Positions 6,090-10,538 of a DNA stretch of 10,716 nt are shown here, in pieces. How positions within the stretch are numbered: position 1 is the stretch's first letter; every line of letters starts with the position of its first letter. The position numbers were made by a program, and so were the translations under genes. The DNA is from Bacteroidales bacterium UBA1733 (GTDB lineage Bacteria; Bacteroidota; Bacteroidia; Bacteroidales; UBA3663): contig DCIF01000068.1 in assembly GCA_002315795.1 (NCBI GenBank), forward strand, positions 1 to 10,716, given 5' to 3'. Under the pieces are notes generated by a model that was not told where the DNA came from, did no database searches, and was given only the letters and a program-made list of their open reading frames with translations.

Positions 6090-6116
6090 ATGAAGAGAAA
6101 TGCGCAACTATTATGA
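6090..6116 (+). CDS. Candidate 8-codon upstream ORF (MKRNAQLL)
   Basis: The ATG at 6090 opens an 8-codon frame that stops at TGA 6114-6116, overlapping the ligase start as ATGA (6113-6116). Its ATG lies only 6 bases past the -7 box, so it would be nearly leaderless. It could couple translation into the ligase or sense the availability of a tRNA or amino acid, but a chance ORF of this length is quite possible. Confidence 0.3.
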   Translation: MKRNAQLL

Positions 6117-7729
6117 AAGTAAAGATAAGACAATTTAGAGAGACAGACACTTCCCTTCTTGATCTTGTGGAAAGAACGATTAGGAGAAATTGGAACTCAC
6201 CTGCCTATACCGACTATGGTACAAACCTCACCTACTCATACTGTGATGTAGCAAAGAAGATTGCATCCCTACACCAACTCTATAAAGACCTGGGCATTCA
6301 GCCAGGCGACAAGATTGCCCTCTGCGACAAGAACAGCAGCAACTGGGCAGTCAGTTTCATGTCTGTACTCACATACGGGGCTGTAGCCGTGCCTATCCTT
6401 CCAGATTTCAACGCCGAACAGATCCAAAACATCTTCGAGCATTCAGAGTCAAAACTCATGATAGGACGTGCAGATATTCAGACTGTATCACCTATACTTG
6501 ACATCGTGGAGTGGAAAATGGCCGATGGCAGTCGCAGTATTGCTGACTACGACAACAGCGATCTCACTGCTGCCAACGTATCATACTTTCGCGAGAACAC
6601 CGACGACCTTTGTCTCATGAGTTACACAAGTGGTAGCACCGGCCGATCAAAAGGCGTAATGCTGCCATACCGGTCTATCTGGTCAAACGTGAAGTTTGCC
6701 GACGAAGTGTTAGGTCTGCCACGCGGCTGCAAGACCATGGCGATCCTCCCTATGGCTCACATGTATGGTTTCTCATTCGACTTCATCTACGAGTTCTGCT
6801 GCGGATGCCATGTGCATTTCCTCACCAAGAGTCCAAGCCCAGCCATTGTGACAAAGGCTTTTGGCGAGGTCAAACCAGCCATCGTCATCGCTGTGCCTCT
6901 CATCATCGAGAAGATCATCACAGGCAAGGTATTTCCTATGCTACGCACTCCAAAGATGCGTATGTTGCTCCGCATGCCACTCCTCAATCGTTATCTTTAC
7001 AAGAAGGTGCGCGAAAATCTTATCAATGCCTTCGGTGGCGAATTCTACGAAGTCATCATCGGCGGCGCGGCATTCAGCAAGGAGGTCGAAGAGTTCCTTC
7101 GTCTCATCAAGTTCCCTTACACCGTAGGCTATGGTATGACAGAGTGTGGTCCGATACTTGGTTATGAAGACTGGCATCACTTTGCCAAGAACTCCTGTGG
7201 TAAGGCTGCCCCACGCATGGAGATAAGGATCGACAGCGCAGATCCTGAAAATCTTCCGGGCGAAATTCTTGCTCGAGGTGCTAATGTCATGCTCGGCTAC
7301 TATAAGAATCCGGAAGAGACAGAGCTGGCCATCGATAGCGAAGGATGGCTTCACACCGGCGACCTTGGCACCATGGACCGCGAAGGCAACATCTTCATCC
7401 GTGGCCGCAAGAAGACAATGCTTCTCGGCGCCAACGGCCAGAACATCTACCCTGAGGAGATTGAGGATGTAATCCTCTCCAACGCCCCATTTGAGGAGAC
7501 GGTAGTAGTGCAGCGTGGTGAAAAACTCGTGGCTCTAGTCTATGTGTCCGATCAGGAACTTCAGAAGCACGAACTTACTCGCGAGACTGTTGCAGCATCG
7601 CTCGACCAGTACAAGCGTGAGGTCAATGCTGCGCTCCCTCGATTTGCAAATATCTCTTCCTACGAACTCCAAGAGCAGGAGTTTGAAAAGACACCAAAGC
7701 GCAGCATACGCCGCTACCTATATAAATAA
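6113..7729 (+). CDS. Acyl-adenylating enzyme, ANL superfamily (acyl-CoA ligase-like), copy 1
   Basis: A 538-residue AMP-binding enzyme that should activate a carboxylic acid, probably a fatty acid, with ATP and pass it to CoA or another thiol. Motifs in order: A3 P-loop YTSGSTGRSKG (171-181), GGAA (317-320), A5 YGMTECGP (340-347), A7 HTGD with Asp417, the A8 hinge RGRKKTMLLGANGQNIYPEEIED starting at 430, and the C-terminal FEKTPKRSIRRYLYK. In the last motif the A10 lysine position, aligned by eye with TPTxK of long-chain acyl-CoA synthetases, is Ser531, with Lys529 and Arg530 just before it. No signal peptide or membrane segment is obvious, so it is likely cytoplasmic or peripheral. It is divergent from the GH28 unit and 6 bases upstream of a close paralogue. 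Substrate cannot be told from sequence; acyl-ACP synthetase is an alternative. Confidence 0.88.
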   Translation: MKVKIRQFRETDTSLLDLVERTIRRNWNSPAYTDYGTNLTYSYCDVAKKIASLHQLYKDLGIQPGDKIALCDKNSSNWAVSFMSVLTYGAVAVPILPDFNAEQIQNIFEHSESKLMIGRADIQTVSPILDIVEWKMADGSRSIADYDNSDLTAANVSYFRENTDDLCLMSYTSGSTGRSKGVMLPYRSIWSNVKFADEVLGLPRGCKTMAILPMAHMYGFSFDFIYEFCCGCHVHFLTKSPSPAIVTKAFGEVKPAIVIAVPLIIEKIITGKVFPMLRTPKMRMLLRMPLLNRYLYKKVRENLINAFGGEFYEVIIGGAAFSKEVEEFLRLIKFPYTVGYGMTECGPILGYEDWHHFAKNSCGKAAPRMEIRIDSADPENLPGEILARGANVMLGYYKNPEETELAIDSEGWLHTGDLGTMDREGNIFIRGRKKTMLLGANGQNIYPEEIEDVILSNAPFEETVVVQRGEKLVALVYVSDQELQKHELTRETVAASLDQYKREVNAALPRFANISSYELQEQEFEKTPKRSIRRYLYK

Positions 7730-7735
7730 GACAAA

Positions 7736-9343
7736 ATGAAAGATTTACGTCTGAAGAGCAAATCCCTCATGGAACTGCTCGAGACTTCATTTCAGAAGAA
7801 CTGGGATCACCCAGCATACTCCGACTACGGAACCGACACCAGCTACACCTATGCCGACGCATACCGCAACATGATGCGTCTGCATGCCATCTTCAAGCAG
7901 TTGGGCATCCAGCCTGGCGACAAGGTTGCACTCTGCGACAAGAACAGCAGTCGCTGGGCCATATCCATGATGGCCATACTCACTTATGGTGCAGTCGGTG
8001 TGCCTATTCTTCCCGACTTCAGTATTGAACAGATACAGAACATCTACACTCACTCCGAATCCAAACTCATGATCAGCGGTCAGAAGCTGACGGAGCACTT
8101 CCCTAACGGAATGGACATTACCAACTTCTCGATGAACGACGGTACTGCCCTCCCAGCGCTCGATGAGTTCGCGACACTCCGTTCGTCACAGGTCAAATTC
8201 TTCCGCGAGTTTCCAGACGATCTTGCCATCATCAGCTACACTAGCGGCAGCACCGGACATTCAAAGGGAGTCATGCTCCCATACCGTTCGCTATGGTCAA
8301 ATGCTCTGTTTGTTGATGAATATCTCAGAGTGCCAAACCGTTGTGACATCCTCCCACTCCTCCCAATGAGCCACATGCTTGGATTCGCATTTGAATATAT
8401 GTTTGGCACATGCGTAGGAGCACATATCCATTTCCTCACAAAGATACCAAGTCCAAAGATAGTACTGACTGCATTCGCCGAGGTCAAGCCTATCATGCTG
8501 GTATGCGTGCCTCTGGTTATAGAGAAGATTGTCACAAGCAAGGTATTCCCAATGCTTCGCACACCAAAGATGCGCAACATGCTTCGGGTTCCGGGATTGA
8601 GAAACATAGTCTTTGCACAGATCCGCAAGAAACTCATCAAAGCTTTTGGCGGCAACATACATGGAGCCGTGATTGGCGGAGCAGCCATGAGTCGCGAAGT
8701 TGAGGAATTCCTGCACAAGATCAAGTTCCCTTACACCATCGGTTACGGTATGACCGAGTGCGGTCCTCTCATCTGCTATGAGGACTTCAAGACTTTCCCT
8801 CTCGGATCGTGCGGACGTGCCATCAACCGCATGGAGGTGAAGATTGACAGCCACGATCCAGAGAACAAAGAAGGAGAGATTCTCGTACGAGGCACGAATG
8901 TCATGCTGGGATACTTTAAGAATCAGGAAGAGACCGACGAGGCCATCGACTCAAGAGGATGGCTTCACACGGGCGACCTTGCCACCATGGACAAACATGG
9001 CTTCGTTTATATCCGCGGTCGCAAGAAGAGCATGCTGCTTGGTGCAAACGGGCAGAACATCTATCCGGAAGAGATTGAAGATATCATCCTCACTCACACC
9101 AGCTTCGACGAATGTATTGTCGTGCAGCGTGAAGACAAACTCGTGGCTCTTGTCTACATGTCGGAAAAGACCATGAAGGAAAAAGCTTTCACTCGCGACA
9201 TCATCCTCGGCAAACTCGACTACTACCGCAAGCGCACCAACGAACTCCTGCCTCGATTTGCTGCGCTCTCATCCTTCGAACTGCGAGACGAAGAATTCGA
9301 AAAGACTCCAAAGCGCAGTGTCCGCCGATACTTATATAAATAA
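7736..9343 (+). CDS. Acyl-adenylating enzyme, ANL superfamily (acyl-CoA ligase-like), copy 2
   Basis: A 535-residue paralogue of the preceding gene, roughly 60% identical by eye along its whole length, with long shared runs such as GIQPGDK, ALCDKNSS, KVFPMLRTPKMR and LLGANGQNIYPEEIED. Motifs: A3 YTSGSTGHSKG (168-178), GGAA (314-317), A5 YGMTECGP (337-344), A7 HTGD (411-414), the A8 hinge from about 427, and a C-terminus FEKTPKRSVRRYLYK with Ser528 where the A10 lysine is expected. The region around residues 120-160 and the stretch 208-260 (the substrate-tunnel side of the N-terminal domain in relatives) differ most, which would fit two enzymes of different substrate choice after tandem duplication. 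The ATG at 7736 is 6 bases past the previous stop, so the two are co-transcribed. A strong stem-loop follows immediately. Confidence 0.88.
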   Translation: MKDLRLKSKSLMELLETSFQKNWDHPAYSDYGTDTSYTYADAYRNMMRLHAIFKQLGIQPGDKVALCDKNSSRWAISMMAILTYGAVGVPILPDFSIEQIQNIYTHSESKLMISGQKLTEHFPNGMDITNFSMNDGTALPALDEFATLRSSQVKFFREFPDDLAIISYTSGSTGHSKGVMLPYRSLWSNALFVDEYLRVPNRCDILPLLPMSHMLGFAFEYMFGTCVGAHIHFLTKIPSPKIVLTAFAEVKPIMLVCVPLVIEKIVTSKVFPMLRTPKMRNMLRVPGLRNIVFAQIRKKLIKAFGGNIHGAVIGGAAMSREVEEFLHKIKFPYTIGYGMTECGPLICYEDFKTFPLGSCGRAINRMEVKIDSHDPENKEGEILVRGTNVMLGYFKNQEETDEAIDSRGWLHTGDLATMDKHGFVYIRGRKKSMLLGANGQNIYPEEIEDIILTHTSFDECIVVQREDKLVALVYMSEKTMKEKAFTRDIILGKLDYYRKRTNELLPRFAALSSFELRDEEFEKTPKRSVRRYLYK

Positions 9344-9344
9344 G

Positions 9345-9380
9345 AAACTGGTCGTTTGGTTGTTGCCAAACGACCAGTTT
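9345..9380 (+). terminator. Strong intrinsic terminator after the ligase pair
   Basis: AAACTGGTCGTTTGG (9345-9359) pairs perfectly over 15 bp with 9366-9380 around a 6-base loop, directly after the second ligase stop codon. The 3' arm ends CCAGTTT and is followed by TCATTCTTGTC, a broken U-rich tail. Since the next gene is convergent, the stem may also serve from the other side. Confidence 0.85.
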
Positions 9381-9451
9381 TCATTCTTGTCTATTACTTC
9401 TTTAAGGGTTGGCATTTGGTTAATATTTTATATTGTTATGGAAATCTCAGC

Positions 9452-9522
9452 GGCAATTGATGATGCGCACATTTCCACACGCCTCTTGGGAGGCGGCTAC
9501 AATGCGCACATCATAATTTGCC
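9452..9522. repeat. Large imperfect inverted repeat downstream of the variable-region gene
   Basis: The core is CGCCTC-TTGG-GAGGCG (9480-9495), a 6-bp perfect stem with a 4-base loop. Outside it, TGCGCA (9464-9469) pairs with TGCGCA (9503-9508), and the pairing continues outward through GATG/CATC, TT/AA and GGCAA/TTGCC with small bulges, for about 17 further pairs. The 10-base direct repeat ATGCGCACAT occurs at 9463-9472 and 9502-9511. It starts 36 bases past the stop of the convergent gene and has no U-tract. The remainder of the 9381-9557 gap shows no gene or other clear signal. Confidence 0.6.
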
Positions 9523-9557
9523 TTTGGTTTCATTTGGCTTCGGCTTGGAAGCAAAAG

Positions 9558-10538
9558 TTACTGAGGCAAAGCAACGAGGCGCAGACTTCGACCGTAGAAG
9601 CGGCCGAAGTCGTTACTCGCGTAGACAAAGTATGAGTAGAAGTCCAGGTAGTAGGCGTCGTCCGAACTGCCGGAGCCAGACGTCGACGACCAACAGTAGC
9701 CGTCACTACCCCCATAGCCGAAGCTGGAGCCACCGCGGAGGCCAGCAGCGGGCAGACAAACCAAGCCTAGAGTATTCACTTCTGCGAGGGTGTATGAGGA
9801 CTGCAAAGTACCCGTGACCCCATCAGGAGCTATAATGAGGCAGTTGGTGTAGGTGGTTCCGTTGTTGGATACAGATACACCATACTTTCTGAGGCTTGAG
9901 GCATTGGTGCGACTGCTGATGAGGTAGGAGTACTCATCTCTACTCAAGGCAAAGAGGTCCGAGGCGCCTTCGACAGTCAGACCACCCTTGCTCTCTGCGA
10001 AGAAAGGCACATCACTGGTTGAATTGGTACCATAGCTATATGACTCTGCATAAGAGGCTGCAGCTGTCTTGGTCCAATAGAAATGGCTTACGTGCTTAGG
10101 GTCCCATGTAGCACCTGCTGACGTGGTGTTCAAACCATCCGTCTGGTTAACCTCGAACTTGAAGGCGCTACCATCCCAGTAGAGGTTAGCCTTGGTGAAC
10201 TGTACGGTCTTTCCTTCGGCAACTGTGAATGTACCAGGAAGAAGGTTACTGGATGATGGCTCTGGGGCTGGGGCTGGGTCGTCACTGATGCACAACTTAG
10301 CCTTGATGGCAGCAATGTCGGTGCTCAGCTTTGTCAGCACCTGCAACAGAGCCTCAGTATCAACCACCGTCTTGTCCGTGGCTGCAGCTGCCTTCACCTG
10401 GTTCACCACCTTCGTCACGTCAGCAATGCTTTCCTTGTCATCCTGGTTCACATCGTAAACGGAATAAGCCTTCAGGCTCTGCACATTCATGCTCATCGTG
10501 ACAACGAATGCCGCAAAAAGAAATAGAATCTTCTTCAT
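9558..10538 (-). CDS. Secreted FISUMP/C-type-lectin-like protein, putative DGR target
   Basis: A 326-residue exported protein of unproven function. Residues 1-24 are a signal peptide (MKKILFLFAAFVVT..., likely cut after SLKA). Residues 28-46 form a single dockerin-like calcium motif (DVNQDDKESIADV). Residues 60-82 look helical or coiled-coil, then comes a Pro/Ala linker, PAPAPEP (88-94). From about 102 the sequence resembles a Bacteroidota family I recall with a VxFSxGNLxY start (here TVQFTKANLYW), an SRDEYSYLISSR segment, and a LPAAGxRGG...GYxWSST...RSxRLV end, related to FISUMP/DUF1566 and C-type-lectin-like folds. The last ~60 residues are rich in Tyr, Ser, Asp, Gly and Phe, as in DGR variable regions. 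It stands alone, convergent to the ligases, with no neighbour in its transcript. Surface-exposed ligand binding is the likeliest role. The ATG at 10538 begins the signal peptide. Confidence 0.75.
   Translation of the reverse strand: MKKILFLFAAFVVTMSMNVQSLKAYSVYDVNQDDKESIADVTKVVNQVKAAAATDKTVVDTEALLQVLTKLSTDIAAIKAKLCISDDPAPAPEPSSSNLLPGTFTVAEGKTVQFTKANLYWDGSAFKFEVNQTDGLNTTSAGATWDPKHVSHFYWTKTAAASYAESYSYGTNSTSDVPFFAESKGGLTVEGASDLFALSRDEYSYLISSRTNASSLRKYGVSVSNNGTTYTNCLIIAPDGVTGTLQSSYTLAEVNTLGLVCLPAAGLRGGSSFGYGGSDGYCWSSTSGSGSSDDAYYLDFYSYFVYASNDFGRFYGRSLRLVALPQ
9585..9737 (-). other. Putative DGR variable region in the C-terminus
   Basis: Residues 268-318 of the secreted protein, between LPAAGLRGG and RLVALPQ. 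Of the 50 codons for residues 269-318, 40 end in C or T, many being TAC, TTC, GAC, GGC, AGT or TCC, as expected if AAC/AAT template codons had been mutagenised at their adenines; only one AAY codon remains (Asn309). The fixed frame RGG, CWSST, AYYLDF, GRSLRLV matches the conserved skeleton of such domains. A template repeat is needed for proof and none is in this window. Confidence 0.45.

Follow-up and report, generated by a model that had tools for sequence, protein, structure and literature searches.

According to the available text of PMC4159848, variable proteins (VPs) of diversity-generating retroelements (DGRs) in the human microbiome carry DUF1566 (now Lcl_C) or Fib_succ_major domains, with DUF1566 as the commonest Pfam domain (47 proteins). 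Remote or leftover DGR targets are described for Treponema denticola, cyanobacteria and Thiohalocapsa in the accessible portions of PMC4891356, PMC7517822 and PMC10907252. A large DGR survey sought variable regions (VRs) adjoining a reverse transcriptase (RT) and states, in the portion available, that remote targets would escape it (PMC8144416). In Bordetella phage BPP-1, a hairpin behind the VR is required for efficient target recognition, as given in the excerpted text of PMC3240598.

The window, by which we mean the whole stretch of 10,716 nucleotides analysed here (Bacteroidales bacterium UBA1733, contig DCIF01000068.1), contains a VP gene that resembles the human-microbiome proteins in that a domain of similar type has the VR at its C-terminus. 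Those proteins belong, in the available text, to DGR systems with an RT and a template (TR), whereas neither was found in the window, and the Pfam match of its VP is under the cut-off. The described targets of Treponema denticola, cyanobacteria and Thiohalocapsa are likewise remote from the RT or lie in genomes without one; as far as the accessible text goes, they come from other phyla and have a known template, whereas the target in the window is inferred from what its sequence and that of a single relative show. Remote targets with this type of domain were known before; what is new is the member in the window and a template-free signature for orphan targets. The literature searched (most subscription papers fall outside it, and acc was not queried by sequence) held no description that we recognised of the window VP gene or of the gene here called acc.

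The initial annotation had read the gene as a candidate orphan or remote DGR target, and this reading is supported indirectly by frozen silent sites in the VR, a match to the AAY columns of templates, a VR-specific hairpin, a stump of acc, and the arrangement of a complete DGR in a related genome (G069). From these sequence comparisons, we put the probability that the VR of the window was written by a DGR, active or past, at roughly 0.87.

The VP gene and its relatives

The skeleton LPAAGLRGG...GYCWSST...AYYLDF...GRSLRLV was found where it had been claimed, in the minus-strand open reading frame of the VP gene (Table 1). In the Pfam scan, Lcl_C (PF07603) scored 12.5 bits on the VP, below the cut-off of 34.9, and Fib_succ_major (PF09603) was not among the Pfam matches. 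For the relative P0004, the scores were 25.3 of 34.9 bits (Lcl_C) and 20.1 of 33.9 bits (Fib_succ_major), both below cut-off. The domain of the window VP is Lcl_C-like only, at scores under the Pfam cut-offs. The modelled fold showed a weak likeness to Lcl, Mtd and C-type lectins, and Foldseek alone gave no match at E ≤ 0.001. The VP is probably secreted.

Table 1. Features of the window around the VP gene, and copies of acc at other loci
Feature	Position	Strand	Remarks
VP gene, 326 aa	9558..10538, stop codon included	-	open frame; 94 relatives at E ≤ 0.001
C-type-lectin-like C-terminal part, residues about 94-326	9561..10259	-	
VR, residues about 259-326	9561..9764	-	from third-position track against L008 and Asn columns of templates
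Two-tier hairpin behind VR, outer 14-bp stem, inner CGCCTC/GAGGCG stem	9460..9514, inner 9480-9497	-	43 bases past stop codon; DNA fold z -5.8
acc stump, first ten codons MPTLKEVIDK	9386..9415	-	same place in L008 (MPTLKEVIEK) and L001 (MPSLKEVLER)
Inverted repeat, 15-bp arms, probable shared terminator (putative function)	9345..9380	.	between stump and convergent gene 7736-9343
acc copies at other loci	L101:3225-3710; L136:1078-1632; L140:317-874; L107:410-895; L008:624-986	-; -; +; +; +	further acc proteins: P0216-P0221

Ten loci with VP relatives, in six genomes, were found by a scan of genome contigs. Among the loci scanned, the closest DNA to the VP gene was L008, in the draft MAG UBA1720 (G004); at the protein level, the relative P0002 is 82% identical. 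The window VP had no match at 1e-5 among phage and plasmid records. In viral contigs, the DNA pattern of the VR core gave 14 matches, which we attribute to chance and in none of which the VR frame was present (three frames read); the DNA pattern of the VR 3' end gave no matches, and the 21 stretches found there with profile A1 yielded no confirmed case.

Several further observations were made on the gene, its relatives and its surroundings. Residues 27-50 of the VP (about 10389-10460, minus strand) include a DVNQDDKESIADV stretch that resembles a dockerin-type repeat, and Dockerin_1 matched the relative P0004 weakly (E 0.03). Convergent with the VP gene are two adjoining AMP-binding enzyme genes, alike in sequence, at 6113-7729 and 7736-9343 on the plus strand. 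A MAG from horse faeces (G001) had 15 VP-profile matches (some genes counted twice), four of them in the VR part only, on contigs C10, C134, C105, C129 and others; RVT_1 was unmatched in it.

Silent sites in the VR

Between the window and L008, third positions differed in 38 of 72 codons upstream of residue 263 but in only 5 of 59 codons of the VR (residues 263-322; Fisher p 3e-8), while first- and second-position differences numbered 20 and 14 in the upstream codons and 15 and 13 in the VR. The third-position differences are dense through residue 257, with a single one at 263 and the next not before 286, which places the 5' edge of the VR between residues 257 and 263. The freeze of the VR third positions, with its sharp edge, indicates that the 3' ends of both genes were overwritten. 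On this pattern, the window gene and L008 appear to be old relatives whose 3' ends were replaced from nearly the same sequence and then changed at first and second positions.

Third-position divergence from the window, upstream and in the VR, was 0.57 and 0.27 for L001, 0.50 and 0.38 for L002, and 0.57 and 0.41 for L003. L005 (0.58 and 0.59) and L006 (0.59 and 0.57), which belong to the same domain family, showed no freeze, so the relatives include some that are not recent targets. Differences at first and second positions that involve adenine made up 19 of 27 in the VR core and 23 of 35 upstream between the window and L008; this comparison of two VRs does not discriminate and is not used as evidence.

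Asparagine columns of related templates

The TRs of G069, G119, G071 (partial) and G036 translate as VP-type domains with Asn at set places. Where half or more of these four independently found TRs (related ones, none of them cognate to the window VR) have Asn, which is the case in 19 columns, the 13 VRs compared had a mean of 6.4 distinct residues, against 2.0 in the 41 other columns (Mann-Whitney p 2e-9); the VRs (the window, L008 and 11 proteins) were hand-picked from the VP relatives for a matching skeleton. A first column test with ten TR sequences had given 6.25 against 1.68 distinct residues and is partly circular, because seven of the ten came through an Asn-rich query. It had been claimed that codons at variable positions end in C or T, and this held for 20 of 20 codons at the Asn columns, compared with 110 of 168 codons of residues 95-262; the columns were those at which half or more of the same ten sequences carry Asn, a choice that shares the partial circularity.

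Residues that cannot be derived from AAY amounted to 8 of 251 at the Asn columns (6 Trp, 1 Glu and 1 Lys). The variation in the VR thus falls mostly at codons derivable from AAY or from codons with a single A, with the third positions kept (5 of 59, against 38 of 72 upstream). Among the best 120 of 324 query matches in the protein collection, 13 proteins were read, and seven of these were Asn-rich TR-like open reading frames. One such frame, P0096, has the LVCLP start and RLVAL end of the window VR group.

A hairpin behind the VR

The hairpin behind the window VR has a near letter-for-letter copy in L008 (fold z -6.1). Its inner part is kept in L001, where the outer stem is different yet pairs (z -4.6), and in L051 (z -3.2). 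A search for the inner motif CGCCTC-N3-6-GAGGCG in 143 fetched sequences (142 loci plus the window, 653,073 bases with overlaps counted) returned 8 rows that represent four distinct places, namely the window, L008, L001 and L051, and all of these lie behind a VR or VR fragment.

An inverted repeat behind the VR is thus present in the window, but its shape is unlike that of the phage class. The hairpins of the BPP-1 class, as described in the available part of PMC3240598, have 7-10 bp stems and GRNA loops and lie 4-34 bp from the VR, whereas that of the window has a two-tier stem with a 6-bp inner stem and a CCAA loop and is separated from the stop codon by 43 bases. By analogy with BPP-1, the window hairpin may serve in homing in spite of this difference in shape. 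In G069, a different hairpin stands behind three of four VRs (not that of C57) and is absent from L101, the locus with the TR and RT.

Another FISUMP family with VR-type ends has hairpins that are alike in layout and differ in their stems, which read GCGAGTTGCC/GGCAACTCGC in L034 and L039 (G001) and AGCGTCGGGC/GCCCGACGCT in L123, L105 and L131 (G069). This looks like preservation of structure through changes on both sides of the stem.

The acc stump and the acc gene

The frame that starts with MPTLKEVIDK at 9415 is identical to P0218 over the first ten residues of the latter, and homology is then lost at the probable terminator. The unbroken blastn stretch between the window and L008 covers 9387-9977. 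At the position of the stump, the acc open reading frame has 121 aa in L008 and 76 aa in L001; fuller relatives of 193-203 aa are P0216, P0217, P0220 and P0221, from which P0218 diverges partway. The equal longest contigs (2298) of P0218 and the VP relative P0002 suggest that the two adjoin.

The acc gene encodes about 160-200 aa with the motif RAYDxSAW...GFP; in DGR cassettes of the window's group its place is after the VP and before either Avd or the TR, and it also occurs on viral contigs. It was found at nine places in eight of 139 genomes, and a FISUMP-type VP or VR, a TR or a DGR RT adjoins it at eight of the nine, the place in G131 being undecided. In three of four viral loci with acc, the gene is followed immediately by a TR-like open reading frame and a DGR-type RT; in the remaining one, where the contig ends 1.3 kb on, neither was flagged. 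From this linkage at eight of nine genomic places and three of four viral loci, acc is a DGR-linked gene. Given this linkage and the stump, the VP gene of the window either once headed an acc-bearing cassette or was copied together with the 5' part of such a cassette. A shortened acc of 61 aa also stands behind the remote VR C9 of G069.

No family matched acc above its cut-off: the acc of L101 matched MutS_I at E 0.013, under the cut-off, and six acc proteins compared with Pfam or PHROGs gave two weak matches only (P0220, E 0.16; L136, E 0.023). A MutS-like accessory gene of DGRs has reportedly been described before. The IMG/VR contigs L148, L150 and L151 carry acc, a TR-like open reading frame and a DGR-type RT in a row; two of them, L150 and L151, further carry a frame of about 1954 aa with a VR-like lectin domain at its end. 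We make no claim that the L008 contig is a mobile element; five of its open reading frames had no Pfam match, and one weak match of unknown function was found among three compared with PHROGs.

Comparison with a complete DGR

The complete DGR of G069 served as a control. On its contig C13, the order is VP, hairpin, acc, Avd, TR and RT (L101, L105, L127), with an acc of 162 aa, an Avd that matches bAvd at E 1.7e-8 (under the cut-off) and an RT that scores 49.8 bits with RVT_1 (above the cut-off). Four VRs, of which three lie on other contigs, match the TR over 185 bp, and mismatches fall at TR adenines in 17 of 17 cases for C9, 20 of 20 for C13, 20 of 24 for C57 and 21 of 27 for C53. Compared within the same domain and with the frameshifted C53 omitted, the VRs of C9, C13 and C57 showed 0, 2 and 4 third-position differences in 61 VR codons, against 32, 41 and 33 in 101 codons upstream. 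Judged by this control, the pattern between the window and L008 is of the same kind as that among VRs under one proven TR.

G069 and the window are alike in the order of VP, hairpin and acc, in that G069 has remote VRs, and in the truncated acc behind the C9 VR. They differ in the VP bodies and the hairpin sequence, and the window VR has a template other than the TR of G069. Two other observations concern the targets in this genome: the frameshifted VR of C53 (L131) is a decayed target whose DGR is still in the genome, and the targets on C13 and C57 (L127 and L130) have long N-terminal parts joined to the variable lectin domain, in which we take motifs seen by eye to be kinase-like.

Search for an RT and a template

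The reported absence of an RT and a template from the window was confirmed. The best other match to the VR within the window was 17 bases long (E 0.26), two template-type peptide words occurred in none of the six frames, and the Pfam scan detected no RT among the eight other open reading frames. Because no RT or TR adjoins the VP gene, we class the feature as a DGR target and not as a complete DGR cassette.

RVT_1 (PF00078) had no match in G004 and G001, the two draft MAGs with the nearest VRs. Searches with the VR DNA returned only VR copies, fragments and weak matches in six genomes, and no cognate TR among the best five candidates at most per genome in 139 genomes of the genus of G004; L008 DNA likewise found none among the best two at most per genome in 399 genomes drawn from the family of G004. 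L051 (G001 C161:424-467) was considered as a TR and rejected, as this intergenic stretch beside an unrelated gene is a piece of a VR 3' end that includes the stop codon and the hairpin. RVT_1 matched in 42 of the 139 genomes of the GTDB genus of G004. The RT of G002 (L011) was rejected as a DGR RT, being group II intron-like by motif. We take six of 30 fetched RT loci to be of DGR type by the motif [LI]PIG[ND]L[TS]SQ, which has no family model behind it; several loci were left out of this set by a filter, and others (SIGLRSSQ type) were assigned to no class.

Alternative explanations

The DGR that wrote the VR might since have disappeared, which would leave the gene static. This is a variant of DGR writing, so that its likelihood is part of that given above, and we regard it as a possibility of some weight though not the favoured one. 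The reduction of acc to a stump and the lack of an RT in the window would fit such a fixed remnant, and leftover targets without a core DGR are described for Treponema denticola in the accessible text of PMC4891356. Against it stand the intact frame and hairpin of the window and the fact that the silent sites of the VR are almost those of L008, though the gene bodies have diverged. Moreover, the older VRs of G069, C57 and C53, carry four and six non-adenine mismatches, and C53 is frameshifted, whereas the window VR shows no such decay. On the intact frame, the intact hairpin and the near-identity of silent sites with L008, we lean towards recent rewriting over a fixed copy. We judge present DGR activity on the window VR to be slightly favoured.

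Gene conversion or recombination among lectin paralogs, with selection for variety and no retroelement, could draw on the 15 VP-profile matches in G001 (again with some genes counted twice), where an RT was not found, and conversion by itself would also reduce silent divergence across a tract. A converted tract is not expected, however, to have 28 first- and second-position differences and only five at third positions; the columns that vary coincide with those of DGR templates, and the acc stump and the hairpin link the gene to DGR cassettes. We therefore consider this explanation very improbable. Ordinary divergence of a FISUMP/DUF1566-type domain with loops tolerant of Tyr, Ser, Gly, Asp and Asn is the least credible of all, for although such domains are common and variable and L005 and L006 show no freeze against the window, it would alter third positions first, and the VR compared with L008 shows the opposite within a sharp tract.

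A probable remote target and its template

Under writing by a DGR, a retroelement elsewhere in the host, or one visiting it, would yield a template RNA, which an error-prone RT and Avd would copy with random bases opposite adenines; the cDNA would then replace the VR at the 3' end of the VP gene, aided by the hairpin behind it. An RT and a TR are presumably present in the host.

The other genes of the window showed 65-76% DNA identity where they matched in the seven genomes compared (matches in G004, G001, G002, G069 and G119 and none in G068; one of two comparisons left G004 without a match). Within the genus of G004, 64 of 139 genomes had matches, and identity there did not exceed 73%. This low identity indicates that none of the compared genomes is the species of the window. 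The silent agreement of the VR with L008 in spite of this implies either mis-binning of the small L008 contig or a template shared between species. The 5.7-kb contig may be mis-binned and come from the window's own species, which would then have two targets of one template. Alternatively, the template may be more mobile than its targets, with one DGR lineage moving among distant Bacteroidales and rewriting resident orphan lectin genes in trans. We consider this speculative and rather unlikely; if it is true, VRs and hairpins of different hosts would be near-identical at silent sites while the remainder of the gene diverges.

These results suggest that, given one relative, orphan targets are recognisable even where the template is missing, by sharp-edged frozen silent sites, a hairpin behind the VR and a stump of a DGR-linked gene. 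If this signature holds generally, fragmented metagenomes would allow the full extent of DGR-diversified lectin repertoires in Bacteroidales to be measured.
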